Shown here: positions 4,209-20,915 of the stretch, piece by piece | How the letters are laid out: every line of letters starts with the position of its first letter | Numbering within the stretch: the first letter of the stretch is position 1 | From: Helcococcus ovis | GTDB taxonomy: Bacteria; Bacillota; Clostridia; Tissierellales; Peptoniphilaceae | Direction: 5' to 3' | Assembly: GCF_004524775.2 (NCBI RefSeq) | Contig: NZ_CP119081.1 | Coordinates: 1,302,001 to 1,366,000 of the forward strand | DNA: 64,000 nt | The notes under the pieces: model-generated | What the model saw: only the letters and a program-made list of their open reading frames with translations | The model's database searches: none | What the model was told of the DNA's origin: nothing | Translations under genes and position numbers: made by a program

Positions 4209-4898
4209 CTATTTTTTTATTCGCTTAAATAAAACAAATGTAATTATAATTTCCACTAAAACAAATATTAAAAATAATATTTGCACAATTAGATGCTGTT
4301 TACTTATACCACTTAAAAGCACATAATCCCAAGTCGCATGATAAATTACAATCAATAATATATTTTTAGTGTATTTATAAACTGTTGCAAAAAATAATCC
4401 TGCAACAAAAGTGGAAATTAATTGTGATAAAACTTGATTAAATGCAAGTCCTCCCAATATATTAACTGCATGCAATAATGAAAAAGCTGATGCTGATATT
4501 ATCAAGGCTTTTGTAAACCCTTTTTCTTTATGTAAATTAGTAAACAGAACTCCCCTATATATAAGTTCTTCACTTATGCCTACAAGTATAGCTCCAATCA
4601 AAGGTACAAAAAATGAAGTTGAAAAACTAAATTTTTTATAAATTGTAAAAATACCTATAGATAGCAACGCAGCAAATAGACCATTAACAATAATACAATT
4701 TGACTTGTCGGTATCAATATCTACTCTATATTTATTATAAATTATTAAAGAAAATATAGTCAAAACAGATAAAAATGGCAATATCATCTTGATAAAGTTT
4801 GGATTACTATATTCTACATGATAAATATGTTTTGATACGAAAATACCAAGTGCCATGATAAATGTATAAATTAATAATATTTTATAAACTTTTTTCAT
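4209..4898 (-). CDS. CPBP-family intramembrane metalloprotease
   Basis: A 229-residue membrane protein with six to eight hydrophobic segments. The family motifs are present: SEELIYRGVLF (paired Glu), FSLLHAVN (His) and HATWDYVL (His). CPBP/Abi proteases cleave within membranes, and in Firmicutes often serve bacteriocin self-immunity or processing. No bacteriocin gene is visible nearby, so the substrate is unknown. It is transcribed away from the nrd operon. Confidence 0.85.
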   Translation of the reverse strand: MKKVYKILLIYTFIMALGIFVSKHIYHVEYSNPNFIKMILPFLSVLTIFSLIIYNKYRVDIDTDKSNCIIVNGLFAALLSIGIFTIYKKFSFSTSFFVPLIGAILVGISEELIYRGVLFTNLHKEKGFTKALIISASAFSLLHAVNILGGLAFNQVLSQLISTFVAGLFFATVYKYTKNILLIVIYHATWDYVLLSGISKQHLIVQILFLIFVLVEIIITFVLFKRIKK

Positions 4899-4992
4899 AA
4901 TTTTATATTAAGGTAATCCTTAACCCTCCTTCTTTTATATTGAATTATACCATATTTTCACCATTTAAGCATATTAAATTATCCTGCTATAT

Positions 4993-5039
4993 AAACTATA
5001 TATCGTGTTTAAATATAAAAATAGTACTATATATTGTAT
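4993..5039. promoter_or_regulatory. Pair of NrdR boxes upstream of nrdI
   Basis: AAACTATATATCGTGT (4993-5008) and GTACTATATATTGTAT (5024-5039) both resemble the NrdR box consensus ACACTATATATAGTGT. They are 31 bp apart, about three helical turns, as is usual for NrdR box pairs. NrdR represses ribonucleotide reductase genes when dATP/ATP is high; its own gene is not in this window. Confidence 0.8.
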
Positions 5040-5046
5040 TTAAATC

Positions 5047-5075
5047 TTGAAATATAACTTTATATAGTATATAAT
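5047..5075 (+). promoter_or_regulatory. Sigma-A type promoter of the nrd operon
   Basis: TTGAAA (5047-5052) and TATAAT (5070-5075) are separated by 17 bp, downstream of the NrdR-like boxes and 25 bp upstream of the nrdI start. Confidence 0.8.
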
Positions 5076-5099
5076 CAGAAATAAATATTTGGAGGATAT

Positions 5100-5474
5100 A
5101 TGTATATAATAGTAGATTCAATCACCGGCAATTCAATAAAATTCGCAATTAAAACAGGATACACATACATGAAAGTCAAGGATAGAAAAAATATAAAAGA
5201 AGGAGATAAGTTTTTACTAATTACAAGATGTCAAAATTTTGGTGAAATTCCGATGAATACACAACTTCTTTTAGATAAATATCACGATCAGTGCATAGGT
5301 GTTGCAGTTTCAGGTAATAGAAATTGGGGAAAACATTTTGGTATATCCGGAGATTTAATCGAAAAGCAATACAATATTAAATGTATATTAAAATTTGAAG
5401 GTACAGGTTATCCTCACGAAGTTGAAATTGTAAAAAAATTTATTGAACAATATGAAAGGGAGCATAATGATTAA
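5100..5474 (+). CDS. nrdI: NrdI, flavodoxin-like activator of class Ib ribonucleotide reductase
   Basis: A 124-residue protein with the NrdI signatures GVAVSGNRNWGKHFG and GDLIEKQYNIKCILKFEGTG. NrdI is a small FMN protein that supplies the oxidant needed to assemble the Mn(III)2-tyrosyl radical cofactor of NrdF. An AGGAG-like site (GGAGGATAT) precedes the start. The stop codon overlaps the nrdE start by 8 bases, which points to translational coupling. Confidence 0.93.
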   Translation: MYIIVDSITGNSIKFAIKTGYTYMKVKDRKNIKEGDKFLLITRCQNFGEIPMNTQLLLDKYHDQCIGVAVSGNRNWGKHFGISGDLIEKQYNIKCILKFEGTGYPHEVEIVKKFIEQYEREHND

Positions 5475-7572
5475 CGAAAATACAAATATTTCACCATGGA
5501 TATTACTTAATAATCAAGTAATTGATGGTGAAGGAAATATAAAAGATTTAAGTAAAGATAAGGAAGCGGCACGTTCTTATTTTTTAAATGAGGTAAACAA
5601 AAAAACAAGGTTTTTTCACTCTTTGGAAGAAAAAATTGAATATCTTACAGAAAATGAATATATTGAAAAAGAATTTTTAGAAAAATATTCAATGGAAGAA
5701 ATTAAGCAAGTTTTTGAATATGCCTATGCTAAAAAATTTAGATTTCCAACGTATATGGGGGCATTTAAATTCTATAATGACTACGCATTAAAATCAAAAG
5801 ATCACGCAGAGATTTTAGAAAGATATGAAGATAGACTTTCATTTATAGCACTTTATCATGCAGATGGAAATATTGAAAAGGCAATGGAATTGATTAAAAG
5901 ATTAATCGCACAAGATTTTACCCCTGCAACACCTACATTGTTAAACACAGCTAAAAAGCATAGAGGCGAATTTGTTTCTTGTTTTTTATTGGAAATAAAT
6001 GATTCTCTAAACGATATAGCAAGAGGTTCTGAATTTGCAATGCAGCTTTCAAAAATTGGTGGAGGAGTTTCTCTGCATCTATCAAATCTAAGAGCAAAGG
6101 GTGAAACTATAAAAGGTCACCCAAATGCTGCAAAGGGTGTAGTAGGAGTAGCAAAATTGCTTGATAATGCTTTTAGATATGCTGACCAAATGGGACAAAG
6201 ACAAGGTGCCGGTGCCGCATATTTAAATATATTTCATGCGGATATTGAAGATTTTATCTATACAAAAAAACTTAATGCTGATGATGATATAAGGCTTAAA
6301 ACTCTTTCACTGGGAGTTGTGATACCTGATAAATTTTTGGAACTTGCTAAAGAAGATAAGGATATGTATCTATTTTATCCAAAAACTGTTTATGATGAAT
6401 ATAAAATACCGTTTGGAGACTTAGCAATTCACATTGATAAATATTATGATGAAATGGTAGAAAATCCAAGAATCAGAAAGAAAAAAGCAAACCCAAGAAA
6501 ATTACTTGAAATGATTGCTCAAGTGCAAGGCGAATCAGGATATCCATATATAATGTATGTTGATAATGTAAATAATTCAAATCCACTAAATAGAGATGTA
6601 AAATTCTCTAATTTATGTACAGAAATATTACAGCCATCAGTAGTTTCAACATATGCCGACTATGATAAGAGAGATTTAGACGAAATCGGTCAAGATATCT
6701 CATGTAATTTAGCAAGTGGGCATATGGCAAATATGATGAACAATAAATCAATAAAAGAAACAGTATTTGCTGCTATGGATATTATGAATTCAGTAAGTGA
6801 AAAAACTAATTTATCATATATTCCAAGTATTGCAAAAGGAAATAATTTAATGAGGTCTGTTGGATTCGGTATCATGGGGCATCATGGATATATAGCTGAA
6901 AAGAAAATATACTTTGGCTCAAAAGAGGACTTAGAGCTAATAGATGTATTCTTTAATATTGTAAATTACTGGTCGTTAGTTCATTCTATGAATAAGGCAA
7001 AAGAAACCGGGTTAAAATTTGATAAATTTGAAGAAAGCGACTATGCTTCAGGAAAATACTTTGAAAACAGAGGTGAAATTTTACCAAATACAGAAAAAGT
7101 AAAAGAATTATTTGAAGGCATTTACATTCCTACTGATGAAGATTGGAAAAATCTAAAAGAAGATGTAATGAAATATGGACTATACAATTCTAACAGACTT
7201 GCAGTAGCTCCAAACGGAAGCTCCGGATATGTAATGAGTGCAACTCCTTCTATTACACCGATAAAGCAGTTAATTGAAGAAAGAACTTACGGAAATTCTA
7301 AATCCTACTTCCCGGCTCCTGCATTGGATAAGTCATTACACTACTATACAACGGCTTATGAAATGAATAAATACAAGATAATAGATGTGATTGCAACAGC
7401 TCAAAAGCATGTAGATCAGGGAATATCGTTTGAATTGTGCATAACAAGTGATTTGACAACAAGAGATTTACAAAGATTTTACCTATATGCTCATTATCAA
7501 GGAATTAAGACACTTTATTACACAAGAACTCAAAAGCTTAAAGTAACTGAATGCGAAGCTTGTTCAATTTAA
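5467..7572 (+). CDS. nrdE: Class Ib ribonucleoside-diphosphate reductase, alpha subunit
   Basis: With the ATG at 5467 (behind AAAGGGAG) the product has 701 residues, the usual NrdE length; an in-frame ATG at 5443 lies inside nrdI and lacks a ribosome binding site. It reduces ribonucleoside diphosphates to deoxy forms in the cytoplasm. Visible features: FVSCFLLEINDSL with the first redox Cys, SKIGGGVSLHLSNLRAKG, the active-site strand NLCTEILQPS, and the C-terminal redox pair in TECEACSI that is re-reduced by a glutaredoxin-like NrdH or thioredoxin. No nrdH gene sits in this operon. Confidence 0.95.
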   Translation: MINENTNISPWILLNNQVIDGEGNIKDLSKDKEAARSYFLNEVNKKTRFFHSLEEKIEYLTENEYIEKEFLEKYSMEEIKQVFEYAYAKKFRFPTYMGAFKFYNDYALKSKDHAEILERYEDRLSFIALYHADGNIEKAMELIKRLIAQDFTPATPTLLNTAKKHRGEFVSCFLLEINDSLNDIARGSEFAMQLSKIGGGVSLHLSNLRAKGETIKGHPNAAKGVVGVAKLLDNAFRYADQMGQRQGAGAAYLNIFHADIEDFIYTKKLNADDDIRLKTLSLGVVIPDKFLELAKEDKDMYLFYPKTVYDEYKIPFGDLAIHIDKYYDEMVENPRIRKKKANPRKLLEMIAQVQGESGYPYIMYVDNVNNSNPLNRDVKFSNLCTEILQPSVVSTYADYDKRDLDEIGQDISCNLASGHMANMMNNKSIKETVFAAMDIMNSVSEKTNLSYIPSIAKGNNLMRSVGFGIMGHHGYIAEKKIYFGSKEDLELIDVFFNIVNYWSLVHSMNKAKETGLKFDKFEESDYASGKYFENRGEILPNTEKVKELFEGIYIPTDEDWKNLKEDVMKYGLYNSNRLAVAPNGSSGYVMSATPSITPIKQLIEERTYGNSKSYFPAPALDKSLHYYTTAYEMNKYKIIDVIATAQKHVDQGISFELCITSDLTTRDLQRFYLYAHYQGIKTLYYTRTQKLKVTECEACSI

Positions 7573-7582
7573 GGAGATAATT

Positions 7583-8620
7583 ATGACACATATTTACACA
7601 GGTGCAAACTGGAATAACAACGACGACGAATTTACACAATTATTTTATCAACAAAATTTATCACAATTTTGGAGACCTGAAGATATTTCTCTACAGTCCG
7701 ACTTAAATGTATGGAATACTCTTCCGGAACATGTAAAAAAAGCTTATGTTAGAAATTTACAGGTTTTGACGTTTTTAGACACTTACCAAGGTGATATAGG
7801 GATGCCTGTAGTTTCACGTTCTTTAGATGATGACCAACATCAAAGAAAAGCGATAATAAACTTCATGGCAGCTATGGAAAATGCTGTGCATGCAAAGTCA
7901 TATTCCAATATTTTTATGACATATCTAAACGGTAGTGAAATAGACGAGTTATTCAAATGGGGTGAAAATAACAAAGAATTACAAGCATTTCTAAATTTAA
8001 TCGTAGGACAATATAAAGATCTTGACAAATTAACTTATGAAAAAAATTACGGATTTAAAAAAGTAGACCCGTTAAAGTTTAAGATTGCTCAATATAAAGC
8101 CTGCGTTGCATCAACATTTTTAGAAACATACTTGTTCTATTCTGGCTTCTACTATCCACTATACTTCTACGGACAAGGCAAACTAATGCAAGCCGGAGAA
8201 ATTATAAACCTAATTTTAAGAGATGAATCCATACATGGAGTTTATATCGGGAAAATAGCAATAGAACTTTATAGAGAATTTGACGAAAAATTACAAAAAA
8301 AATTACACTCTTGGGCAATGGATTTAATGAGTAAACTATATGGTCATCAATTAACGCTAATCGAAAGTATATATGACGAAGTGGGTTTATCTCATGACGT
8401 TAAGGTATTTGTTAGATACAATGCAAATAAAGCACTGATGAATATAGGTTTTGACCCATATTTTGAATATGAAGAGGTAAATCCGGTTATATTAAATGGT
8501 CTAAATACTGAAACAAAAACTATGGACAATTTCTCAATGAAGGGCAATGGATATCAAAAAATGGTTACCGAATCAATAAAAAATGAAGATTTTGAATTTA
8601 AAAAACCTAAAATTAAATAA
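7583..8620 (+). CDS. nrdF: Class Ib ribonucleoside-diphosphate reductase, beta subunit
   Basis: A 345-residue ferritin-like protein that carries the dimetal centre and tyrosyl radical. Metal-ligand segments are visible: the first Glu/His helix in AAMENAVHAKSYSNIF and the second in ILRDESIHGVYIG. An AAGGAGAT site lies between nrdE and its start (10-bp gap). It completes nrdI-nrdE-nrdF and is followed by a very strong hairpin. Confidence 0.95.
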   Translation: MTHIYTGANWNNNDDEFTQLFYQQNLSQFWRPEDISLQSDLNVWNTLPEHVKKAYVRNLQVLTFLDTYQGDIGMPVVSRSLDDDQHQRKAIINFMAAMENAVHAKSYSNIFMTYLNGSEIDELFKWGENNKELQAFLNLIVGQYKDLDKLTYEKNYGFKKVDPLKFKIAQYKACVASTFLETYLFYSGFYYPLYFYGQGKLMQAGEIINLILRDESIHGVYIGKIAIELYREFDEKLQKKLHSWAMDLMSKLYGHQLTLIESIYDEVGLSHDVKVFVRYNANKALMNIGFDPYFEYEEVNPVILNGLNTETKTMDNFSMKGNGYQKMVTESIKNEDFEFKKPKIK

Positions 8621-8627
8621 AAAATAT

Positions 8628-8705
8628 CCCCCCCCGAATTAAGGTGACCTCCTTCAAGTTGGCCCTAAAACCAACTTGAAGGAGGTCACCTTAATTCGGG
8701 GGGGG
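8628..8705. terminator. Perfect 35-bp-stem hairpin after nrdF
   Basis: Positions 8628-8662 pair without a mismatch with 8671-8705 around the loop CCCTAAAA; the stem opens with a run of eight C and closes with eight G. It contains TGACCTCCTT and AAGTTGG, which recur in other intergenic hairpins of this window. It follows the nrd operon and could stop transcription from both sides, though it lacks a classic T run directly after the stem. Confidence 0.7.
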
Positions 8706-8720
8706 TATTATAGTCTTTAT

Positions 8721-9002
8721 TTATTTATTTAAGCTTTTAATTATATTTTTATTTATTTTTTTAGTAAACTCATCAAAATCAGAATTTATCTTCTGAGTTT
8801 TATTAAAAATATCCTGAAACATTTCTCTTAATTCCTCTATTTTATAAATATTTCTTAAATGCTCATTAATCATGGTAACATCAACTTCAAACAATTACAC
8901 CATCTACTTTTGAGTTAGCCAAAATGTCTCATCACTATAAACTACATCAACAGAAACATTCCTATCATCTTCTTGATATAAAATAATTTTGTCTTTTTCC
9001 AT
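8721..9002 (-). pseudogene. Decayed rhuM-family gene
   Basis: An ATG at 9002 behind AAGGAG begins a frame with the RhuM N-terminus (KIILYQEDDRNVSVDVVY, then ETFWLTQK). The frame continues to a stop at 8721 with two in-frame nonsense codons where the family has QMAELF: TAG, ATG, GTG, TAA, TTG, TTT. After these it reads on as EVDVTMINEHLRNIYK. The remaining 94 codons are about a quarter of a full RhuM. A matching promoter (TATAAT, 18-bp spacer, TTACAA) is still visible upstream. RhuM proteins are putative DNA-binding proteins of genomic islands; this copy is dead. Confidence 0.8.
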
Positions 9003-9164
9003 GTTTTTCTCCTTATTATTTATTGGAGCTGTCAAAGATATTATACCATAAAAGAACATATGTTTGTAATAAATGTTTTTTATCAACCTAAACAAGCCTC
9101 CAACTTCCGCCATGATGCTGGAACAGATTCCCCTTTTTCTAACATAACCTTGCAATTAAAGCCC

Positions 9165-9450
9165 TTTTTAACAAGATCTTTTGAATTAATACAAGGGGTT
9201 CCAAAAACAATTTTATCAGATAATATGAAAACAATTATGGATGAACCAAGAACTAAGGATTCTGATGGAAAAATTAATAATAAATTTAATCAATTCTTAA
9301 ATGATTTTAATATAAGCTTAAAACCATGTATGGCTAGAAGGCCACAAACTAAAGGTAAATTAGAAAATAAGTTAGAACAACGAATAAAACATTACACAGG
9401 ATATAGATTATTAATAATTGACGAAATGGGCTATTTACCGCTAAATGATG
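9165..9450 (+). pseudogene. IS21-family remnant: istA fragment fused to istB fragment
   Basis: The frame encodes an IstA-like piece of the DDE integrase domain (GVPKTILSDNMKTIMDEP, then ARRPQTKGKLENK), directly followed by an IstB-like Walker B piece (RLLIIDEMGYLPLN). In complete IS21 elements these belong to two genes separated by more than a kilobase, so an internal deletion joined them. There are no intact ends. Confidence 0.8.
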
Positions 9451-9486
9451 GTCGGTGTGGTCTTAGGACTGCACCGACTTTTTTTG
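9451..9486 (+). terminator. Terminator-like hairpin upstream of the AbiE genes
   Basis: GTCGGTGTGGTC and GACTGCACCGAC pair (two G-U wobbles) around TTAG and are followed by seven T. It insulates the toxin-antitoxin pair from upstream transcription. Confidence 0.8.
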
Positions 9487-9495
9487 CAGCCTTTA

Positions 9496-9524
9496 TTTAC
9501 AAATACTCTTTAATATTGTATAAT
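9496..9524 (+). promoter_or_regulatory. Promoter of the AbiE operon
   Basis: TTTACA (9496-9501) and TATAAT (9519-9524) with a 17-bp spacer, directly upstream of the AGGAGG site of the first gene. Confidence 0.75.
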
Positions 9525-9550
9525 AAAAGCGTAAATGTAGGAGGTGATGT

Positions 9551-10138
9551 ATGATGAATATTTTGGATGAATATTTAAAAGAAAAAGGATTCATTACAAA
9601 TAAAGAAGCTGAAAAGCTCGGCATTAAGAGATATAAGCTTGCTGAACTTGTTCATAAAGGGAAACTTGAGCGAGTAAAAAATGGAGTATACAAGAAAAAA
9701 GATGATATAGACGATGAACTTGTACTAATATCATATAATAATGAAAAAGTTATATTTTCGTTTCACACTGCCTTGTTTTTGTTAGGACTTAGTGATAGAA
9801 TTCCAAATTCTTTTCATATTAGTGTACCTCAAGGCTATAATGTCGGTCATATAAAAAAACGAATGAATAATATTAAGGTACATTATATAAAAAAAGAAAA
9901 CTTTGATATTGGTATTATAACCGTAAAGACAGCATTTGGAAATGAAGTAAAATGCTATGATATGGAAAGAAGCATTTGTGATATTGTTTCCAAAAGAAAT
10001 GTCATGGACAAACAAATATTTGTAGATGCGATCACCGGATACTTTAACAGTAAGGAAAAAAATATGAGAAATCTTATTAAATATAGCCGGATATTAGGAG
10101 TTGAAGATGAAATAAGAAAATATATGGAGGTATTATAA
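9551..10138 (+). CDS. AbiEi-like antitoxin / transcriptional repressor (type IV TA)
   Basis: A 195-residue protein with an N-terminal winged-helix segment (FITNKEAEKLGIKRYKLAEL, VHKGKLERVKNGVY) and the AbiEi antitoxin domain (YDMERSICDIVSKRN, KQIFVDAITGYF). AGGAGG lies at 9539-9544; a second ATG at 9554 could also start it. AbiEi proteins repress their own operon and counteract the nucleotidyltransferase toxin encoded next. The stop is one base before the next start. The pair sits in a patch of dead mobile DNA. Confidence 0.9.
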   Translation: MMNILDEYLKEKGFITNKEAEKLGIKRYKLAELVHKGKLERVKNGVYKKKDDIDDELVLISYNNEKVIFSFHTALFLLGLSDRIPNSFHISVPQGYNVGHIKKRMNNIKVHYIKKENFDIGIITVKTAFGNEVKCYDMERSICDIVSKRNVMDKQIFVDAITGYFNSKEKNMRNLIKYSRILGVEDEIRKYMEVL

Positions 10139-10139
10139 A

Positions 10140-10979
10140 ATGATTAGTCCAGAGAGCTTGAAAGGCAAAGTAAAAAACATCTCAAAAAGTAAAAGATTAA
10201 GTTCACAGGAAGTTTTGCAGATGTTTTTCTTTGAAAGATTTTTAGAAAGATTATCTCATTCCAAATATAAATTTAATTTTGTGATTAAGGGTGGATTGCT
10301 AATCTCATCAATGATTGGCATAGATAACAGGACGACAATGGATATGGATACGACTGTGAAAGGAGTTGTCTTAAAAGAAGATGTCATTAAAAATATAATT
10401 TTAGAAATTTTGGGCATAGAAGTTGGTGATGGAATACAGTTTGAGGTTACTGATATTACTCATATTCGTGAAGAAGATGAGTATGAAAATTTCAGAGTAC
10501 ATCTAACTGCCATATTTGGAAAAATAAGAAATGCTATGAAAATTGATATTACAACAGGAGATGTAATTACACCAAAAGAAATCGAATATGTATATCCCTG
10601 CATGTTTAGGGAAGAAGGGCTTAAAGTTCTTGCATATCCTATTGAAACGATACTTGCAGAAAAATATGAGAGTGTTATAAAAAGAAATATATCTACAACA
10701 AGAATGAGAGATTTTTATGATTTATATAGCTTATATCGTTTAAGAAAAGAGGAAATTGATTTTGGGGTTCTTAAACAGGCTATTCTATCAACGGCAGGAA
10801 AAAGAAATAGTATGTCTTTTATTCAAGAGGCAAATGAAATCATAAATGATATTAAGGGAGATAGTTACTTAAAAAAATTGTGGGAGGTCTATTTGAAAGA
10901 TAATCCATATATAAAAGAACTTGATTTCTTCGATACGGTAGAAGTGGTCAAGATAATAGCTGAAAAAATAGAAATTTAG
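10140..10979 (+). CDS. AbiEii-like nucleotidyltransferase toxin (type IV TA)
   Basis: A 279-residue protein of the AbiEii/AbiGii toxin family (nucleotidyltransferase fold). Motifs: FVIKGGLLISSMIG and TTMDMDTTVKG (the GG/S and DxD-type metal-binding segment), followed by MKIDITTGD and IETILAEKYES with the conserved Glu-Lys. Family members transfer nucleotides to RNA, for example tRNA acceptor ends, and cause abortive phage infection or growth arrest. The reading frame is complete and preceded by TGGAGG inside the antitoxin gene. Confidence 0.9.
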   Translation: MISPESLKGKVKNISKSKRLSSQEVLQMFFFERFLERLSHSKYKFNFVIKGGLLISSMIGIDNRTTMDMDTTVKGVVLKEDVIKNIILEILGIEVGDGIQFEVTDITHIREEDEYENFRVHLTAIFGKIRNAMKIDITTGDVITPKEIEYVYPCMFREEGLKVLAYPIETILAEKYESVIKRNISTTRMRDFYDLYSLYRLRKEEIDFGVLKQAILSTAGKRNSMSFIQEANEIINDIKGDSYLKKLWEVYLKDNPYIKELDFFDTVEVVKIIAEKIEI

Positions 10980-11006
10980 GAGATAGAGAAATCATCTCTC
11001 CATCTC
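10978..11006 (+). terminator. Hairpin after the AbiE operon
   Basis: GGAGATAGAGA pairs imperfectly with TCTCTCCATCTCC immediately after the toxin stop. There is no T run, so it may be only a stabilising 3' hairpin. Confidence 0.45.
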
Positions 11007-11083
11007 CTTACCCATGTAAATTCCATAATTTTTGGTATATTGTAAAGTTCGTCCATAGTAGATTTTGAAGAAGAATACTCTTG

Positions 11084-11469
11084 GAGACTGTAATAAATTT
11101 TGTGTATGAAAATCTTTCTGATTAAGGTGATATAAACTTAATCAGGAGGATTTTTTTATGGGAAGAAAAAGACCAGAAACAGCAAAAAGTAGATTAGCAA
11201 AACAATTAATAGAGTCATATGATATAAAAACTGCTCAAGATATACAAGAGGCATTAAAATACTTGCAGGAGAATGGTTTGATATTAACCATCCAAAAATT
11301 ATAGCAAGTCTATCATTAGAAATTTCTGAAGAAACGCCTATTTTCTCTATACGGTAGTGAGCTTGTCCTGAAATTGAATAATCTGAGCAAAGCTAGTTTA
11401 TAGCATCACAAATAGTTTTTCCCCAACTATCATTTGAGCCACCATAATCAACCAATTTATTACAGTCTC
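11084..11469 (+). mobile_element. Internally deleted IS256-family element (MITE-like, 386 bp)
   Basis: GAGACTGTAATAAATT at 11084-11099 is repeated inverted at 11454-11469, defining two ends. Inside, an ATG at 11158 behind AGGAGG encodes the N-terminus typical of IS256-family transposases (MGRKRPETAKSRLAKQLIES, TAQDIQEALK), then breaks off after about 48 codons. The rest of the transposase is gone, so the element could move only with help from a full copy elsewhere. Confidence 0.8.
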
Positions 11470-11481
11470 AAAAAGAAAATA

Positions 11482-11516
11482 AAAAATTCCGACTTATAAA
11501 TCGGAATTTTTTTATT
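11482..11516 (-). terminator. Terminator of the LPXTG-like surface protein gene
   Basis: AAAAATTCCGA and TCGGAATTTTT pair around CTTATAAA with T runs on both strands, next to the stop codon at 11519. Confidence 0.85.
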
Positions 11517-11518
11517 TA

Positions 11519-13273
11519 TTATTCATCTTTTTTTCTTGTTGCAACTAATGCTGCTCCTGCTGCTAATGCAGTCACTACACTTGTTATTACACCTAAATCT
11601 CCTGTTTCAGGATTTTGTTTATTTTCAGATGGTTTTTGTTGTGGTTGTGGTTTTACTTCCGGCTTATTATTTGAATCTTTATTTTCAACAACTGTTAATG
11701 TTGTCTTTAAGATTGAAGAATAATATTTATCTGTTTCTTTTGATACCACTTCTACTACATATTTTCCTAATGGCAATGTTTCCAAGTAGGAATTTTTCAA
11801 TGTAACCATTGTGCTTCCATCTTTCACTTCGTAATTTGAAGGATCTAATACTTTTCCACCAACTCTAACTTCTACAAATGATGAAATTTCTGCATCTGTC
11901 TTGATTACTACATCTTTCATCGAACCTTTTACATATTTTACTGATTCTTCAGTTAATAGATGTGGTTTTATCTTTGTATTGCCAGGTTTTTGTTGTCTTA
12001 TTTTATCTAATTGAGATTTTCTACCTTCCAAATCTTCTTTCTTCCAAGCATCCGATAGACCTTCTAAATCTTTATTTATTTTAGCTCTCTTTTCTTTTTC
12101 TTTAGCTTCTTTTAGCAGTCTTTCTCTTTCTGCTTGTCTGTGTGCTTTTTCTCTTTCTTTAGCTTCTTTTAGCAGTCTTTCTCTTTCTGCTTGTCTATGT
12201 GCTTTTTCTCTTTCTTTAGCTTCTTTTAGCAGTCTTTGTCTATTTTGTTCTCTTTCGCCTTTTTTGTCTGTTTTAGTCCAAGCATCTGATAGACCTGAAA
12301 GTTCTTCGTTGATACGTTTCTTTTCTGATTCATTTTTTTCTTTTGCAATATCTAATGCAATATCTAAACTGTCATCAGTATCTGAATCTATAAGTACAAC
12401 CTTATAATCATCTTTTTGTTTTTTGCTTAAATATTTTAAGGATTTGATTTTATCAAAAGCTTCCTTATTTTTATTGTTTCTTTCTTCTGCAATTTCAGAA
12501 ACTACTTTGTTGCTTTCCGCATTATCATCAGTAAGTACTGCTTTATAGTCATTTTTCTTTCTTTCACTCAAATATTCCAACTTATCAATTTTATTGTTTA
12601 CTTGATACTTTGTGTTATTTGCTTCAACTATATTATGCATTTCTGATTCAGCTTTTTCTACTTTTTCAGCTATTTTTTTTAACTCTTCATGCTTTTTCTT
12701 TATTTCTCCAGCATCATGACTATTTCTTATATCTCTTTGTTTAGCTTCTACTTCTCTTTCTAAATCCTTTAGCTTTTCTGTTAATTTAGATACTACGTCA
12801 AAATATTCAGCTCCAAATCTTGAACTCATCTTATATGAATCTCTTACTTGTTCAACGTAATCTCTTAATTCTTCTAATTTTTCTTCTACTTTTTTTGATA
12901 ATTCATTTCTTTGAGTGTTTTCTTTTTTAGCTTCTTCAGATATTTTATTTATTTCTTCTTGTAATTTGTCTAATTCTTTTAATTTTAATTCTCTAATTTT
13001 ACCAATATAATTATTTTGTTCTTCTCTAGACAATTCTTTTAATTTTCTAACTTCTTGAATAGCTTTCAATTTTTTCCATGTAACTTTGGGAGCTTGATCT
13101 GGTTCATTCCAAATATCCTGAGCATAAGCTACTGCACCATTAGAAAAATCAGCACCATAGATGTTTGATACGCCAAGTATAGTAAATGCACCTACTACAA
13201 CGGATACTACTCCTATGGATAATTTTCTTATAGAATATCTTAATATTCTATTTTGATTATTTTTTCCTTTCAT
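11519..13273 (-). CDS. YSIRK-signal, sortase-anchored coiled-coil surface protein
   Basis: A 584-residue protein. The N-terminus has a canonical YSIRK/GS signal (RYSIRKLSIGVVSVVVGAF). The middle is highly charged and predicted coiled coil, with three near-identical repeats (RLLKEAKEREKAHRQAERE) and related GLSDAWKK segments. A beta-rich domain follows (about residues 430-530). The C-terminus has the sorting signal NPETG, a hydrophobic helix and the tail RKKDE, so it should be covalently linked to peptidoglycan by sortase; the motif is LPXTG with N in place of L. YSIRK proteins are usually secreted at the septum. Ligand unknown. Confidence 0.85.
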   Translation of the reverse strand: MKGKNNQNRILRYSIRKLSIGVVSVVVGAFTILGVSNIYGADFSNGAVAYAQDIWNEPDQAPKVTWKKLKAIQEVRKLKELSREEQNNYIGKIRELKLKELDKLQEEINKISEEAKKENTQRNELSKKVEEKLEELRDYVEQVRDSYKMSSRFGAEYFDVVSKLTEKLKDLEREVEAKQRDIRNSHDAGEIKKKHEELKKIAEKVEKAESEMHNIVEANNTKYQVNNKIDKLEYLSERKKNDYKAVLTDDNAESNKVVSEIAEERNNKNKEAFDKIKSLKYLSKKQKDDYKVVLIDSDTDDSLDIALDIAKEKNESEKKRINEELSGLSDAWTKTDKKGEREQNRQRLLKEAKEREKAHRQAERERLLKEAKEREKAHRQAERERLLKEAKEKEKRAKINKDLEGLSDAWKKEDLEGRKSQLDKIRQQKPGNTKIKPHLLTEESVKYVKGSMKDVVIKTDAEISSFVEVRVGGKVLDPSNYEVKDGSTMVTLKNSYLETLPLGKYVVEVVSKETDKYYSSILKTTLTVVENKDSNNKPEVKPQPQQKPSENKQNPETGDLGVITSVVTALAAGAALVATRKKDE

Positions 13274-13563
13274 ATTTTCTCCTCCTCAATATTTTCTGCA
13301 ATTCAAATGTATATAATCTTTACGTGTTTAATTATTATATACAACTGTATAATTATTATATATACCAAACAGAATAATTTTTCAATACTATTGAGTTTTT
13401 ATGTATGTAAAAATCTAATTTTATTAATAATTTTTAATAAATGAAAAATAATCAATTTTTTTACTTATTTTGCTTGAGTTTATTTTTATGAAATAGTATA
13501 TATTTTTCTATTTAATAACATATATTTTTAATTAAGTTTATAATGCACATTAAATCCTCACAA

Positions 13564-13592
13564 TTGATTTATATAATACAATGCATTATAAT
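13564..13592 (+). promoter_or_regulatory. Promoter of the DegV gene
   Basis: TTGATT (13564-13569) and TATAAT (13587-13592) separated by exactly 17 bp. It lies in the roughly 340-bp region between the divergent surface-protein and DegV genes; the rest of that region is AT-rich with no gene visible. Confidence 0.75.
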
Positions 13593-13617
13593 ATTTATAA
13601 TGATACAAGGAGGATTA

Positions 13618-14472
13618 ATGAAAAAGATAATTTTAAGTGCTGATTCGACATGTGATTTATCGTCTGATTTGTTAGAAAAATATAAGATTCATACATTGCC
13701 ATTATACATTAATTTGGATGATAAAGAATATAAAGATATGATAAATATCACACCTGATTTTATATATGATTATTATGACAAAAACAAAATTTTACCTAAA
13801 ACTGCTGCTCCAAGCATTGGTGACTATCTAGGTCACTTTGAACAATGGAATAATGGAGACTATGATATTATTCACGTAAGCATAGGCTCAGGTATATCAG
13901 CTTCATATCAAAACGCAACTTTAGCAGCAAATGAGTTGGATAATGTATATGTAATTGATTCAAAGTCTCTTTCAACCGGTTCCGGTGCTTTATTGGTTGA
14001 GGCATATGAAATGATTAATGAAGGAAAGTCGACCGATGAAATAGTTGAAAGATTGAAGGAATTGAGAGAAAAATTAGATGTAAGTTTTATTATTGATTCT
14101 CTAACATATTTAAGAGAAGGCGGTAGATTAACTGCTTTACAAGCTTTCGGTGCTAACTTACTAAATATTAAGCCAAGCATATTTGTTTCATCACAAAAAA
14201 ATGGACAAATGGATGTGGGAAATAAATACAGAGGAAATATAAATAAGGTATTTATAAAATTTTTCAAGGACAAACTCGAAGATAATGATGAAATTGATTT
14301 AAGACGCATATATCTTACACATTCCGGAGCAGATGAAGCCGATATCGAATTAGCTAAAAATACTATTTCATCTCTTAAAAATTTTGAAGAAATAATTGTA
14401 AACAAAGCAAGTTGTACAATATCTTCACATTGTGGTAGAAATACCTTTGGAATAATTTTCTTAAAGAAATAG
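13618..14472 (+). CDS. DegV-family fatty-acid-binding protein
   Basis: A 284-residue protein when started at the ATG at 13618, which has AAGGAGG upstream; earlier in-frame starts have none. It matches the DegV fold: ILSADSTCDLSSDLL at the N-terminus, PKTAAPSIGDYL, the fatty-acid headgroup motif HVSIGSGISASYQNA, and SLTYLREGGRLTALQA. Family members (FakB) bind a fatty acid and present it to FakA kinase for phospholipid synthesis. No fakA is nearby; Firmicutes often carry several fakB paralogs. Confidence 0.88.
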   Translation: MKKIILSADSTCDLSSDLLEKYKIHTLPLYINLDDKEYKDMINITPDFIYDYYDKNKILPKTAAPSIGDYLGHFEQWNNGDYDIIHVSIGSGISASYQNATLAANELDNVYVIDSKSLSTGSGALLVEAYEMINEGKSTDEIVERLKELREKLDVSFIIDSLTYLREGGRLTALQAFGANLLNIKPSIFVSSQKNGQMDVGNKYRGNINKVFIKFFKDKLEDNDEIDLRRIYLTHSGADEADIELAKNTISSLKNFEEIIVNKASCTISSHCGRNTFGIIFLKK

Positions 14473-14565
14473 ATTGCCGAGCTATTGACATTAATAATAT
14501 AAGTAAGATGAAGAGCTGTGAAGGTTCTGACAGGTAAGTAAAATAAAATACTAACAGATAAAAGC

Positions 14566-14599
14566 AAAGAGAGAGAAAATTAAATTTCTCTCTCTTTTT
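14566..14599 (+). terminator. Terminator after the DegV gene
   Basis: AAAGAGAGAGAAA (14566-14578) pairs with TTTCTCTCTCTTT (14585-14597), followed by further T. Confidence 0.85.
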
Positions 14600-14749
14600 G
14601 TAAAATCTTAAAGTTCAATTGAGTAAAAAATAATAGGTATTTATTTATTATCTCATTTTTTAAAATCTTATTTTTTGCGATACCAACTATACCGATTTAT
14701 ATCATATAATCTTGATAAACCCTCTATTATTGTTAATTATAATATAAAA

Positions 14750-14784
14750 AGAACTGCTACAAAATATTTCGCAACAGCTCCTTC
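14750..14784 (-). terminator. Terminator of the xpt operon
   Basis: On the minus strand GAGCTGTTGC pairs imperfectly with GTAGCAGTTC and is followed by TTTTT, just downstream of the xpt stop at 14797. Confidence 0.65.
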
Positions 14785-14796
14785 AATATATATTTA

Positions 14797-15369
14797 CTAT
14801 CTCTCAAAAACTACATTTCCATCTTTGAATTCTTTTATCATTGCTTGACTATAAACTTCATACCCCTTTTCTCTATATAGTCTACCACCTTCTTGAAATG
14901 ATTTTTCTATAGCTATTCCAATTCCCTCAATCTTTGCTCCTGATTGATTACATAAATCTATTAATCCACCTAATGCTTTTCCGTTTGCCAAAAAGTCATC
15001 TATTATCAAAACATTGTCATCTTGTGTCAAATATTTTTTTTCAACTCTTATCTCATATTCTCTATCTTTTGTAAATGAGTAAACTGTACTTTTCCAAGCG
15101 TCATCAACTAATGTTTTTGAAGCTATTTTTTTAGCAAATACCATTGGTACCTTGAAAAAGAATGCTGTTGTAAGTGCTATTCCTATTCCTGAAACCTCAA
15201 GAGTCAAAACTTTTGTAATTTTTTTATCTTTAAACTTTTCGTAAAAATCTTTTCCCATCTTCATAAATAAATTTGGATCTACTTGATGATTTAAAAAACT
15301 ATCAACTTTTAAGATATTTCCTGATAAAACTCTTCCGTGTTTTACAATCATTTCTTCTAACAATTTCAT
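14797..15369 (-). CDS. xpt: Xanthine phosphoribosyltransferase
   Basis: A 190-residue enzyme that converts xanthine and PRPP to XMP in purine salvage. The PRPP-binding loop is VLIIDDFLANGKALGG; the N-terminal KLLEEMIVKHGRVLSGNILKV is typical of Xpt. It lies 2 bp downstream of the permease gene and shares its riboswitch-controlled transcript, so uptake and salvage are co-regulated. Confidence 0.93.
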   Translation of the reverse strand: MKLLEEMIVKHGRVLSGNILKVDSFLNHQVDPNLFMKMGKDFYEKFKDKKITKVLTLEVSGIGIALTTAFFFKVPMVFAKKIASKTLVDDAWKSTVYSFTKDREYEIRVEKKYLTQDDNVLIIDDFLANGKALGGLIDLCNQSGAKIEGIGIAIEKSFQEGGRLYREKGYEVYSQAMIKEFKDGNVVFER

Positions 15370-15371
15370 TA

Positions 15372-16688
15372 TTATGCCTTCTTTCTGTCCTTTAATATAA
15401 TATTTAATATAAGTGCGACAAGTGTACCTGTTGAAATACCTGACGATAAAATCATTTTCAACGCTTCAGGTAGTCCATTTAGAATTTCCGGTTTTACTGT
15501 TACGCCGATTCCCAGTGCGAATGCTACTGAAATTATAAGCAGTTCTCTATCACCAAGTTTTATCGCAGATAATGTCTTTACCCCTTGGGCTGCGACAAGG
15601 CCAAACATTATTATACCTACTCCTCCTAAAACAGGCTGTGGCATTACTGAAATTAATGCACTTAATTTTGGAAATACACCTAATAATGTTAATATGACAC
15701 CTGCAATAATCATAACATATCTACTTGCAACTTTTGTCAACGTGATTAATCCGACATTTTGCGAAAATGACGTATTTGGACCTGCTCCAAACAATCCTGA
15801 AATCATTGAACCTATACCATCTGCTAAAACCCCATTTGCAACCCTGTCACTTGAAAGTTTTACTTTTGAAGCTTCCCCTATTGCCATCATAATACCTGTG
15901 GTTCCAATCGTCGAAACAACAAATGCCGGCACAAATGATAATGTTGATGATAAGTCAAATTTTATTCCGTTTCCTAAAATATTTGGAATTGCTACCCATG
16001 ATGCATCTGCAACCGGCTTTAGGTCTACCATACCTAATGGTAGGCAAATCAAATAACCAAATACCATTCCTATAAACACTGCTGCCGATGACCAAATTCC
16101 TTTTCCATAGTGATTTAAGAATATTGTAAATAGCATAATTACAAATGCTACTCCCAGATTTTGTAATGAACCATAATTTGAAGCTCCCACTCCACCTGCT
16201 GCCCAATCAACACTAACCGGCAATAATGTTATACCGATAAGCGATACAACTGTCCCGGTAATCAATGGTGGGAAAAATTTGATAATTTTCTTTATAAATC
16301 TACTTAAAATAATTTCAACAAATGAACCTGTAATTGTAGCTCCTATAATTCCCGCTATGCCAAATTTAGCTCCAACACTTATAGACGGATTTACAAATGT
16401 AAAGTCTGTACCCATCATGCCCGGCACTCTTGACCCAATTTTCCATACACCTTTTGATTGCAAAATAGTCGTCAATCCTGATGCAAATATTGTCGCTGAT
16501 ACCATAACCGAAGTTGTAGCAACATCAAATTTTAATGCTGAACAAACAACTAATGGCACAGCAATTATCCCCGCAAAAGCTGCTAAAATATGTTGCAATG
16601 CAAGTATAATACTTACTCCCACAGGTGGCTTAGAATCGATAGAATAAATCAACTCATCTTCATTCTTACTATTAAATTGTTCTTTCAT
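15372..16688 (-). CDS. pbuX: Xanthine/uracil permease (NCS2 family)
   Basis: Started at the ATG at 16688 (behind TTGGAGGAATT), the product has 438 residues and 12-14 hydrophobic segments. NCS2 features are visible: QHILAAFAGIIAVPLVV near the start, the GTDFTFVNPSISVG segment, and NTSFSQNVGLITLTKVASR. It is likely a proton symporter for xanthine given its partner xpt and the upstream purine riboswitch. The frame extends 15 codons upstream into the leader without a ribosome binding site. Confidence 0.9.
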   Translation of the reverse strand: MKEQFNSKNEDELIYSIDSKPPVGVSIILALQHILAAFAGIIAVPLVVCSALKFDVATTSVMVSATIFASGLTTILQSKGVWKIGSRVPGMMGTDFTFVNPSISVGAKFGIAGIIGATITGSFVEIILSRFIKKIIKFFPPLITGTVVSLIGITLLPVSVDWAAGGVGASNYGSLQNLGVAFVIMLFTIFLNHYGKGIWSSAAVFIGMVFGYLICLPLGMVDLKPVADASWVAIPNILGNGIKFDLSSTLSFVPAFVVSTIGTTGIMMAIGEASKVKLSSDRVANGVLADGIGSMISGLFGAGPNTSFSQNVGLITLTKVASRYVMIIAGVILTLLGVFPKLSALISVMPQPVLGGVGIIMFGLVAAQGVKTLSAIKLGDRELLIISVAFALGIGVTVKPEILNGLPEALKMILSSGISTGTLVALILNIILKDRKKA

Positions 16689-16728
16689 ATAATTCCTCCA
16701 AAAAATATTTAAAAACAAAAAAGACTTT

Positions 16729-16761
16729 CTCACGTTTTGAGTTAGAAAATCTTTAAAATGT
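16729..16761 (-). terminator. Riboswitch expression platform: intrinsic terminator
   Basis: On the minus strand AAAGATTTTCTAACTC and GTGAGAAAGTCTTT pair around AAAAC and are followed by TTTTTT, between the purine aptamer and the pbuX ribosome binding site. Confidence 0.85.
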
Positions 16762-16765
16762 CAAT

Positions 16766-16836
16766 CCTAACCCATAGACTATAATTTTTGGTTATAGGTA
16801 GATACGCCCCACCATATTAAGGGCTTATATGAGTTT
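16766..16836 (-). promoter_or_regulatory. Purine riboswitch, guanine/xanthine-family aptamer of pbuX-xpt
   Basis: The minus strand reads ACTCATATAAGCCC, AATATGGTGGGGCGTATC, TACCTATAACC, then TATAGTCTATGGGTT. These are the conserved parts of the purine aptamer: P1, J1/2 (TATAA), the ATATGG and GTnTCTACC segments, and the 3' strand GTCTATGGGT. The base at the specificity position is C, which marks guanine-type aptamers. Ligand binding should favour the downstream terminator and shut off the operon. Confidence 0.93.
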
Positions 16837-16859
16837 AATATTCTTTTTTGTAATTATTT

Positions 16860-17200
16860 CTAATATGATAACATAGTAACTTTATCATTTCAATATTTTT
16901 AACTACTTTTTATAAATTTAATTCTTGAACTGTCAAACATATGTGACAAGAAAGCAATCCAACAATATCTTAAAAAGGTCAAAATCGAAACCCACAAACA
17001 ATGCACATTTATATAACAGAGCACAACACAATTTTAATATTATAGCTCTTTTTATCAATTTATTACATCTTTATTTTGGATTATAGTATGTTTAAGATAA
17101 AAATGTATTATTTACAACCGTTTCAAATTTAATAATTTAGTTACAAGAATCGACGAATAAAACCCAACTGACAAATTACAAATTACAAAAGAACATTTGA
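16860..17200. other. Intergenic region without recognisable gene
   Basis: AT-rich DNA between the purine leader and the istB relic. I see the upstream promoter region of pbuX-xpt at most; no frame with a plausible start is present. Confidence 0.5.
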
Positions 17201-17204
17201 AAAA

Positions 17205-17448
17205 TACTATTTAATGATTTTAGATGAACTAGGATATACCTCATTTGATAAAGTTGGTTATGAAATACTATTTAATTTACTATCATCAAGAAATAATAAA
17301 TGCTAAATAATGTTAACAACTAATTTAACATTGTAATTAACAACTAATTTAACATTGTAAAGATGGGAGGAAGTATTTAAGGTTCCTATGCTTACAAGTG
17401 CAATAATTGATAGATTAGCCTATAGATCACATATTATGGATATGTCCG
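17205..17448 (+). pseudogene. IS21-family istB remnant
   Basis: In broken frames it reads YLMILDELGYTSFDKVGYEI and FNLLSSRNN (Walker B and following), LTTNLT, and WEEVFKVPMLTSAIIDRLAY plus RSHIMDM, which is the IstB C-terminal region in the right order. A 24-bp tandem duplication around 17308-17357 doubles the TTNLTL segment. It runs straight into array 2. The missing central parts differ from those in the remnant near 9.4 kb. Confidence 0.75.
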
Positions 17449-18102
17449 CAATTTCATGTATTTCAAATATTTTTGCAATTTACAGGTAATGCCATCCTCA
17501 CAATTTCATGTATCTCATATATTTTTGCAATTTACAGGTAATGTGAGATCGGCTGCCCTTGACAATTCATGTACTGCGATTATTTTTCAATATTACAGGT
17601 AATGACACCCTCACAATTTCATGTATCTCATATATTTTTGCAATTTACAGGTAATGTGAGATCGGCTGCCCTCTGCAATTCATGTACTGCTATTATTTTT
17701 CAATATTACAGGTAATGCCTGTCCCATAAATTCATGTATCTCATATATTTTTAAAATTTACAGGTAATCTGATATCGGCTGCCCTTGACAATTCATGTAC
17801 TGCGATTATTTTTTAATATTACAGGTAATGACACCCTCACAATTTCATGTATCTCATATATTTTTGCAATTTACAGGTAATCTGAGCTCGGCAACACTCG
17901 GCAATTCATGTACTGCGATTATTTTTTAATATTACAGGTAATGACACCCCCACAATTTCATGTATCTCATATATTTTTACAATTTACAGGTAATCTGAGC
18001 CCGGCAACCCTCACAATTTCATCTATCTCATATATTTTTGCAATTTACAGGTAATCTGAGCTCGGTAACACCCCCCACACACAATTTCATGTATCTCAAA
18101 GC
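17449..18102 (-). repeat. Array 2: same repeat family as array 1, inverted
   Basis: Read on the minus strand it has the same units as array 1: TTACCTGTAAATTGC with GATACATGAAATTG (A), and TTACCTGTAATATT with GCAGTACATGAATTG (B). There are seven A and four B units; A and B alternate until the last 200 bp, where A units follow each other. It ends within 10 bp of the stop codon of the YoaK-like gene. Confidence 0.9.
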
Positions 18103-18853: not shown

Positions 18854-19651
18854 TTAATCTTTGTAAACTACATCTTTGTTATTTAACCATGCGTACCCGA
18901 ATCCTAAGATTAATCCTCCTCCAACAAGATTTCCTAGAAATGCAAATGTCCACTGCCTAATTACATTTACAATGTTTAATCCTATTACATTTTTACCATA
19001 TTGTGAAAAACCTACTAGTGAGAATGATCCAAAGTTTGCAATTACGTGGTCTAATCCTAGATATACAAACATAAATATTGCTGATAAAATAATGCCTACT
19101 TTTGCATTTTCATCTTTTACAAGCATGAATGCAATAATTGCAATATTTACAAATACATTTGCCAATATACCGCCACTCATAATTTCCGAACTACTATGTG
19201 CTAGTTTACACTCAACGATTTTAACAAGCATACTTGTATCTTTTAGCGAATGTAAAACAGATGTGTTGCTTACCAATATCCCAATCGCAGCTGCTCCAAC
19301 TAAATTAAAAAATGTGCAAACTAGTAAAATCTTTACCGCCTTACTAAATTTTATTTTTCTCAAATATGTACCTGCTGTTAAATACATCATGTTTGATGTC
19401 GCTAATTCTGCATTTAAAAATAATATGTAAATAAGTCCCCAAGAAAATAAAAATGCATACATAAATTTTCCAAGGTTTGGGTGAATTGTATTTAAATAAT
19501 CAGCTGCAACTACGCCGGCTAGAGTTGTCATAGCAAGAGCAGCTCCTGCAAATATAGATCTTAAAGCGTATCTTGCAATACTTTTTTCAATCAAATCAAT
19601 TTTTTTATTGCAGTTATAGGTAATTTTTTCTATAAATAATGACTCTTTCAT
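18854..19651 (-). CDS. Formate/nitrite transporter (FNT family)
   Basis: A 265-residue membrane protein with six helices and an FNT layout: RSIFAGAALAMTTLAG, then GLIYILFLNAELATSNMMYL with the conserved NAELxTSN motif, and GFSQYGKNVIGLNIVNVIRQ. It probably exports formate from mixed-acid fermentation or moves nitrite. The first 116 bp and the upstream region are duplicated, inverted, at 1408-1523. Confidence 0.88.
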   Translation of the reverse strand: MKESLFIEKITYNCNKKIDLIEKSIARYALRSIFAGAALAMTTLAGVVAADYLNTIHPNLGKFMYAFLFSWGLIYILFLNAELATSNMMYLTAGTYLRKIKFSKAVKILLVCTFFNLVGAAAIGILVSNTSVLHSLKDTSMLVKIVECKLAHSSSEIMSGGILANVFVNIAIIAFMLVKDENAKVGIILSAIFMFVYLGLDHVIANFGSFSLVGFSQYGKNVIGLNIVNVIRQWTFAFLGNLVGGGLILGFGYAWLNNKDVVYKD

Positions 19652-19822
19652 TTAATCTCCTATACTATATAATAGCTAAAACATAATTTTTTTAATAATA
19701 GATAAAATCTACATTTTATATTATGTGCATTAAAAAGGGACTAAAAACTATATTTTTAATCCCTCAATATGTTTTATAATCTAATAATTTCTACTCTACC
19801 CATACACCGTCAGCATTTACAT
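19536..19822 (-). repeat. Right copy of the inverted duplication
   Basis: Reverse-complement counterpart of 1236-1523: end of a wall-binding gene (encoding GWYVNADGVWVE), terminator, intergenic region and start of the transporter gene. In this copy the transporter gene continues intact. Confidence 0.9.
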
Positions 19823-20915
19823 ACCAACCATTAATTGTTGTTGATTTAGCCATTTTACCGTCTGATAATAAGTAGTACCAGTTATTATCTGTATGTTTTA
19901 CCCATCTATTTTTTGCCATCTTTCCATTTTCTAATAGATAGTACCAGTTTCCATCTTTGTACTCTACCCATTTATTTACAGCCATATCGCCATCTTCATT
20001 TAAATAGTACCATGATGAATAGTCTTCATCATATAACCAATCTGATTTTGCCATCTTTCCATTTCCTAATAGGTAATACCATTTGTTATTTTTGTATTTT
20101 ACCCATTTATTTGCAGCCATATCGCCTTTTTCATTTAAATAGTACCATGATGAATATTCTTCGTCGTATAACCAATATGATTTTGCCATTTTACCATTTC
20201 CTAATAGATAATACCAATCATTATTTTTGTATTTTACCCATTTATTTACAGCCATATCGCCATCTTCATTTAAATAGTACCATGATGAATATTCTTCGTC
20301 ATATATCCAATCTGATTTTACTAGTTCACCCTTATCATTTGTAAAATACCATTTATTATCAGCTTTCTTTTCCCAACCTTTTTTAATTTTAGGTTTTGCT
20401 TGTTCTTGTTGTTTTTTTCTTTCTTCTTCTTTTTGAAGTCTTTTTATTTCTGCTTCTTTTTCTTTTTTTCTTGATTCTTCTAATAGTTCTTTTCTCTTCT
20501 TTTCCCTTTTAGCTTTTTCTTCTGCTTTTTTCTCTTTTTTTCTTGATTCTTCTAATAACTCTTTTTTCTTCTTTTCTATTTCTGCTATTTTTTCTTTTCT
20601 TCTTGATTCTTCTAGTAATTCTTTTTTCTTCTTTTCTATTTCTGCTATTTTTTCTTTTTTTCTAGTTTTTTCTAATAACTCTTTCAATTTGTTATGATCT
20701 TTTCTTTTTGGTTTCTCTAATTTTTTATTAGTTTCTTCTTTTTTAGGCTCTTCCTTCTTTACTTCTTGTTTTGTTTCTTCCCCAGCAAATGAAACACTTT
20801 GTGCTCCAACAGCCCCAAAGAAAATTGAAAATGCTAAAATTCCTGAGCACAATCCTGCACTTAATTTTCTCATACCATATTTAGGCTTTTTTTCGATATT
20901 ATTTCTTTTAAACAT
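19791..20915 (-). CDS. Secreted coiled-coil protein with cell-wall-binding repeats (surface protein 1)
   Basis: A 374-residue protein. The N-terminus is YSIRK-like but altered (KYGMRKLSAGLCSGILAF), with a signal peptide likely cut after QSVSFA. Residues 50-175 are Lys/Glu-rich with repeats of KKKELLEESRKKEK (coiled coil). The C-terminal half holds about nine wall-binding repeats alternating the forms SSWYYLNEDGDMAVNKWVKY and NWYYLLGNGKMAKS. There is no sortase motif, so anchoring should be non-covalent through the repeats. GGAGG lies upstream of the ATG. Confidence 0.82.
   Translation of the reverse strand: MFKRNNIEKKPKYGMRKLSAGLCSGILAFSIFFGAVGAQSVSFAGEETKQEVKKEEPKKEETNKKLEKPKRKDHNKLKELLEKTRKKEKIAEIEKKKKELLEESRRKEKIAEIEKKKKELLEESRKKEKKAEEKAKREKKRKELLEESRKKEKEAEIKRLQKEEERKKQQEQAKPKIKKGWEKKADNKWYFTNDKGELVKSDWIYDEEYSSWYYLNEDGDMAVNKWVKYKNNDWYYLLGNGKMAKSYWLYDEEYSSWYYLNEKGDMAANKWVKYKNNKWYYLLGNGKMAKSDWLYDEDYSSWYYLNEDGDMAVNKWVEYKDGNWYYLLENGKMAKNRWVKHTDNNWYYLLSDGKMAKSTTINGWYVNADGVWVE

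Follow-up and report, generated by a model that had tools for sequence, protein, structure and literature searches.

In REPtrons, a TnpAREP/RAYT gene is associated with its REP/BIME repeats, and repeat and enzyme covary (PMC8266576). TIGR-Tas systems comprise repeats of 8–12 nt, variable spacers of 9 nt, and a Nop-domain protein (PMC12045711). CRISPR-Cas arrays consist of identical repeats with unique spacers and are accompanied by cas genes.

We analyzed a window of 64,000 nucleotides corresponding to positions 1302001–1366000 of the chromosome of Helcococcus ovis (single contig, 1.77 Mb). Two tandem arrays in this window, arrays 1 and 2, are best read as following a REPtron-like logic with a different enzyme, not as a REPtron. 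The likeness consists of a nuclease-type gene located within its own repeats, gene-less copies of these repeats in intergenic places of H. ovis (dispersal being seen in Levyella as well, but not in three Lachnospiraceae genomes), and covariation between repeat and enzyme. Whereas TnpAREP belongs to the HuH tyrosine enzymes and acts on single-stranded hairpins next to GTAG, the enzyme is here predicted to be of the PD-(D/E)XK type, the units are tandem and mostly 52–64 bp long, hairpin folding is not general, and several divergent nuclease copies are present per genome in some lineages. GTAG is absent from the H. ovis unit consensus. No HuH (Y1) or other transposase matched L019 at E ≤ 1, and none was among the families listed (25 of 31) for the 62 family members. 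As in TIGR-Tas, one effector gene adjoins long arrays in which units alternate, and the unit sequence is constant in a given locus but varies from one locus to another (PMC12045711). The loci differ from TIGR-Tas by half-units of 50–61 bp, by recurring linkers, and by the lack of a visible Nop domain (no match for L019, and none among the families listed, 25 of 31, for the 62 members). No cas genes were found among the shared gene neighbors of the nuclease, which were read by eye. A literature search with little coverage of subscription papers and preprints returned no description of the nuclease-array pair.

Arrays 1 and 2 are inverted copies of a dimeric repeat

Tandem Repeats Finder (TRF) reported a period of 113 bp in arrays 1 and 2, with 6.7 copies (93%) and 5.3 copies (88%), respectively, and the longest inverted pair that they form (1582–2184 and 17453–18055) has arms of 603 nt that are 87% complementary. 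The first-pass annotation, which had assigned the two arrays to one family in opposite orientation, was thus borne out by the common period and the inverted arms. Two half-units, A (52 bp) and B (61 bp), make up the 113-bp repeat. Each half-unit consists of a left arm, TTACCTGTAA, a center of approximately 18 bp, a right arm, ATACATGAA, and a linker (12 or 21 bp) with a higher G+C content. The motif TACCTGTAA is present 14 times in array 1 and, as 11 exact copies, at 17480–18045 in array 2. Mean column conservation in 93 half-units from six H. ovis arrays was 0.734 for the center, 0.897 for the right arm, 0.70–0.96 for the linkers, and 0.977 for the left arm, the latter value being partly favored by the anchoring of the alignment on this arm. 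Anchoring on the right arm (109 stretches) gave 0.72–0.89 for the left arm and 0.43–0.93 for the center.

Table 1. Positions of the arrays, their relatives, and associated features.
Feature	Window (nt)	Chromosome (kb)	Strand	Description
Array 1	1531–2288	1303.5	plus	Solo array; A (52) and B (61) half-units strictly alternating, ABABABABABABA
Array 2	17446–18102	1319.5	minus	Solo array; half-units AABABABABA and truncated outer units
Long array		1230.7	plus	
Long array		1248.6	minus	
Long array		1250.7	plus	
Long array		1277.4	minus	
Region adjoining array 1	1229–1524		plus	Inverted copy (about 296 bp, 98%) of region outside array 2
Intact counterpart of 1229–1524	19535–19830		minus	5' end of formate transporter gene (18854–19651) and stretch upstream
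Segment between arrays 1 and 2	2290–17445			S66 peptidase (3007–4089) and DegV (13543–14472), orientation as in congener G001
Small degenerate relative	46240–46430		both	A single minus unit followed by plus units (inverted center); intergenic
Small dispersed relative	52690–53010		both	Minus units, inverted center, plus units
Small degenerate relatives		110, 224, 789, 1354, 1593, 1686		
Nuclease-array loci behind rpsI				L046, L052, L055, L062, L064, L081, L083, L095, L104, L111, L112, L114, L115, L117

The proximity of such arrays to a nuclease gene, described below, could also be accounted for if they encoded guide RNAs, and 6 of 12 two-unit stretches did fold better than shuffled sequences (z < –2). 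We rejected this candidate, which we regard as very improbable, because the linkers recur in many units of the H. ovis arrays instead of being unique spacers and because RNA folding is not general: the H. ovis arrays folded no better than shuffles (z of 0.47 and 0.28). The arrays had no match in Rfam, no Nop domain was seen among the families listed for the nuclease, and its matches to Cas9 and Cas12a were weak and limited to single members (E of 0.005–0.03).

The bracketed segment has the orientation found in congeners

The arms of arrays 1 and 2 are separated by 15,268 nt. The inverted arrays therefore do bracket a segment, as previously annotated, but its size is about 15.2 kb rather than 16 kb. 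Pfam agreed with the earlier assignment of ribonucleotide reductase (nrd), AbiEi/AbiEii, and YSIRK-signal proteins to this segment, and the Pribosyltran score of an xpt-like ORF was just under the Pfam cut-off (24.8 versus 26.3 bits). At least two stretches of the segment (about 9164–9452 and 11083–11273) are 94–98% identical to copies elsewhere in the chromosome.

The first-pass annotation had proposed that recombination between the arrays would invert the segment, with comparison of gene order among relatives as a check. The region extending from 1222 to 1361 kb in H. ovis is collinear with positions 10.7–47.9 kb of contig C14 in congener G001: 29 of 43 ORFs were matched, and 28 of these agreed in order and orientation; the one that did not is a nuclease paralogue. 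Among the 28 are both matched genes of the segment itself, those for the S66 peptidase and DegV, as well as the DUF1622 and formate transporter genes, which lie beyond its limits. In congener G002 (contig C6), 11 of 27 ORFs were matched, all in the same orientation, including the S66 peptidase gene; the first nine were in the same order and two weak matches (30–36% identity) were out of order. Thus, the 15-kb segment has the orientation of the congeners, although their gene order is also compatible with an even number of flips or with flipping within a culture. No flip was seen in G001 or G002, and what stands of the proposal is that the arrays may, judging from their sequence, serve as recombination substrates.

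A second inverted repeat lies just outside the arrays. The copy adjoining array 1 comprises the end of a choline-binding gene, an intergenic stretch, and about 39 codons from the start of the formate transporter gene, and is broken off exactly at the start of array 1, indicating that one or more rearrangements had an array as their end point. This trace of a past rearrangement and the length and similarity of the array arms are the features that would fit an inversion switch controlling the orientation of the segment. We nonetheless abandoned this idea as highly implausible, since gene order and orientation are unchanged with respect to both congeners and a switch would leave the association of arrays with nuclease genes in other species in need of another explanation. 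Arrays 1 and 2 are more than incidental inverted repeats: they belong to a family that has members throughout the genome and is linked to a nuclease gene.

Solo arrays are dispersed in the H. ovis chromosome

The family has 57 matches in the H. ovis genome, including six long arrays within 90 kb (1230.7–1320.1 kb) that alternate in orientation. All 17 places examined were intergenic, barring spurious short ORFs over the arrays. Among 60 genomes searched (H. ovis counted), the family was present in two, H. ovis and a genome with a single weak match, and it was absent from both other species of the genus.

The zone containing the six long arrays is expanded. The distance between the genes for the MATE protein and the formate transporter is 4.7 kb in G001 and about 90 kb in H. 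ovis, the intervals increasing from 38 bp to 50.8 kb (MATE-DUF1622), from 1.5 to 23.4 kb (DUF1622-S66), from 0.8 to 9.5 kb (S66-DegV), and from 49 bp to 4.4 kb (DegV-focA). Chromosome positions 1230–1320 kb, including window positions 1–18100, appear as an expansion of the 4.7-kb G001 block by accessory DNA. The arrays may attract insertions, or arrays and insertions may merely tolerate each other. The location of all six long arrays in this zone would be in keeping with unrelated, neutral satellites accumulating by chance in a hot spot for accessory DNA, but the conserved arms and, in other species, the association and covariation of arrays with the nuclease make such an origin most unlikely.

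Nuclease-linked families are also dispersed elsewhere. A second H. ovis nuclease gene (1662.9 kb) is accompanied by arrays with a period of 64/129, whose family recurs at six places (185.7, 568.7, 692.3, 1219.7, 1528.1, and 1671.0 kb), and the array family of the Levyella nuclease recurs at about seven other places. No nuclease match was located at any H. ovis solo array, and the H. ovis nuclease fragments at 714 and 957 kb have no array beside them. In three Lachnospiraceae genomes (AC2012, Faecalicatena contorta, and Butyrivibrio LB2008), the array was found only beside the gene, except for one weak extra match in AC2012. Spreading is therefore not general.

The cognate gene encodes a predicted PD-(D/E)XK nuclease

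The cognate gene (1,249,773–1,250,588; 272 codons for amino acids), 52 kb to the left of the window, is the single ORF between the inverted arrays at 1248.6 and 1250.7 kb. The protein had no Pfam match of note and no NCBIfam name, and searches of NCBIfam, Pfam, and PDB sequences gave nothing convincing. The AlphaFold2 model (pLDDT of 92) consists of an N-terminal helix, a three-stranded sheet (33–37, 44–51, and 56–62), and a helix, followed by a C-terminal domain. Based on its acidic residues, the core fold of the model, and PADLOC profiles, this domain is predicted to be of the PD-(D/E)XK type. Residues E164, D195, and E210 are invariant in 62 of 62 family members. The PADLOC candidate defense profiles PDC-S68 and HEAT_CxxC_PDDEXK matched 18 and 15 of 18 members, respectively, although the likeness is restricted to the C-terminal domain and PDC-S68 profiles have about 1200 positions. 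Structural alignment of the domain placed TnsA of Tn7 (Z of 7.7, 3.6 Å, 115 residues) in a tie with Bax1 (7.4, 2.9 Å, 96 residues), a score that common arrangements can also reach, ahead of Vsr (6.4, 4.3 Å, 105 residues) and VRR_NUC (6.0, 3.7 Å, 89 residues). Unlike TnsA, the nuclease has an N-terminal sheet module and tandem arrays, and neither TnsB nor another conserved transposase partner was found among 275 neighbor proteins.

Foldseek searches of the PDB at E ≤ 0.001 returned no match for the whole model or for the N-terminal part. The latter was rejected as a known DNA-binding fold after being modeled alone (pLDDT of 89.9) with the same outcome; its best VIA-align rows were prefoldin-like coiled coils (Z of 7.4).

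Relatives of the nuclease were present in 11 of the 100 genomes nearest to H. ovis (G000 counted), often several per genome, and in 19 of 291 genomes class-wide (E ≤ 1e-20), with up to seven matches each, several of which contained stop codons. A named scan of one genome collection retrieved at least 554 relatives of this unnamed family; the 79 loci among the matches listed are mostly from Lachnospiraceae and Peptoniphilaceae. Viral spread was dismissed, as viral contigs contained no relative (30 pattern matches, none confirmed).

Fourteen nuclease-array loci, from Lachnospiraceae or related bacteria, are located behind rpsI, and eight neighbor proteins are RNA-methyltransferase-like. Recurrent insertion behind rpsI was considered and rejected: on a tree of 80 rows, 13 of them rpsI rows and many of the 'other' rows coming from contigs that end early upstream, the label required 11 changes, compared to 12.4 when labels were shuffled (68 of the 500 shuffles reached a value as low), and hence neither a single origin nor clustering behind rpsI is shown. 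Downstream of the nuclease gene, no neighbor cluster was common to many loci, the largest comprising five methyltransferase-like proteins among the 275 neighbors.

Arrays adjoin the nuclease gene in many gut and oral bacteria

An array was scored where tandem periodicity in the 600 bp preceding the nuclease gene surpassed the 99.9% level of shuffled sequences. Upstream DNA was too short in 16 of the 79 loci, which left 63 testable. An array was detected directly upstream in 51 of them, at a lag of 52–54 bp in 42 cases, and was not detected by periodicity in the remaining 12. Bins located 1–5 kb upstream were periodic in 1/56, 5/54, 2/52, and 1/51 loci. Periodicity was found just downstream of the gene in 13 of 78 loci and in 4/76, 3/72, 3/69, and 1/63 of the bins further downstream. 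Other ORFs of the same loci had an upstream array in 12 of 305 cases (Fisher p of 3.7e-39 versus the nuclease, a value that is only a guide due to near-duplicate loci such as L097 and L109). Of 41 genes in a second, more distant set, 17 had a detectable array upstream, as did 6 of 40 downstream (control bins: 1/41, 1/40, 1/40, and 2/36); by the same measure, 24 of the 41 showed none upstream and 21 none on either side. Repeat sequences vary from locus to locus, and inverted arms were significant (p < 0.05) in 22 of 53 units and not significant in 31. Together, these results indicate that an array adjoins the nuclease gene across many gut and oral bacteria. Separately, in Blautia locus L046 (4460–7235), a 135-bp direct repeat (99%) flanks the nuclease gene, with an array of 53-bp lag beyond.

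The strong bias toward the upstream side, where the last unit often ends 16–50 bp from the start codon, is also the pattern that favors an operator array, in which the repeats would be sites for self-regulation by the nuclease, or by its N-terminal part, and solo arrays would be functionless stray copies. The confinement of the array to the gene in the three Lachnospiraceae genomes, one weak match aside, points in the same direction. We consider this explanation unlikely, while giving it some weight, because many solo arrays are present in two Peptoniphilaceae genomes, with conserved arms in H. ovis, because H. ovis also has an array downstream of the gene, in inverted orientation, and because usual operators are shorter than the 9–22 half-units found here.

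Array sequence covaries with the N-terminal sheet of the nuclease

Shared repeated 7-mers tracked nuclease identity in 59 loci (1711 pairs; Mantel r of 0.40, p of 0.0005), sharing increasing from 0.027 for nucleases less than 40% identical to 0.396 for those more than 80% identical. The trend was alike in pairs located downstream of rpsI and in pairs at different loci. A scan along the nuclease gave the highest partial correlation, 0.233, at residues 31–60, which form the three strands of the sheet in the AlphaFold2 model; values were 0.173 at residues 46–75, 0.105 at residues 16–45, and at most 0.065 elsewhere. The correlation was 0.282 for the N-terminal part given the C-terminal part (permutation p of 0.0005) and 0.034 in the reverse case. 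Dropping pairs more than 80% identical weakened the sheet signal (0.156 for N given C versus 0.063 for C given N). The array sequence thus covaries with the nuclease, most strongly with the sheet.

The arrays as probable cognate sites of the nuclease

In the reading that we favor, with a probability of roughly 0.6, the arrays consist of cognate binding sites for the stand-alone nuclease, maintained and spread by cutting and repair, and arrays 1 and 2 are gene-less solo copies. Its basis is the association of array and gene, the covariation with the sheet, the conserved arms, and the dispersal of solo arrays in two genomes. Binding by the nuclease, cleavage, and spread by repair are steps that we infer. 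In each unit of its own array, the N-terminal sheet would recognize the pair of inverted arms, with a nuclease dimer on each unit of roughly 53 bp. Cutting at the array followed by recombinational repair would lengthen, shorten, and homogenize it. From time to time, a copy would reach a new intergenic site and remain there as a solo array. Inverted pairs, arrays 1 and 2 among them, would be by-products, which may recombine.

We extend this reading more tentatively, at somewhat less than even odds, to a selfish or domesticated satellite system of Clostridia. A sheet of 30 residues would set the specificity of each nuclease, cutting and repair would keep, edit, and spread its own array, array and sheet would change together, and each paralogue would have a private satellite. 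An unnamed nuclease family that comes with matched tandem arrays would then be a second, independent case, beside REPtrons, of a nuclease keeping a private repeat population. The prediction is a small recognition module whose DNA target is readable from the array adjoining the gene, which would make the specificity of hundreds of uncharacterized nucleases directly testable.

Short relatives and other repeats in the window

The two small relatives in the window and loci L014, L015, L017, and L018 are short, AT-rich members of the array family with an inverted center, reminiscent of MITEs. Some of these adjoin a repeated stretch resembling the end of an insertion sequence. The dispersed relative at 52690–53010 contains stretches that recur in chromosomal copies at 224.6, 789.5, and 1686.5 kb. 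At 63700–63854, the window also contains a GATCAT-rich tandem repeat with a period of 24/60, which may encode the tail of a His/Asp-rich protein.
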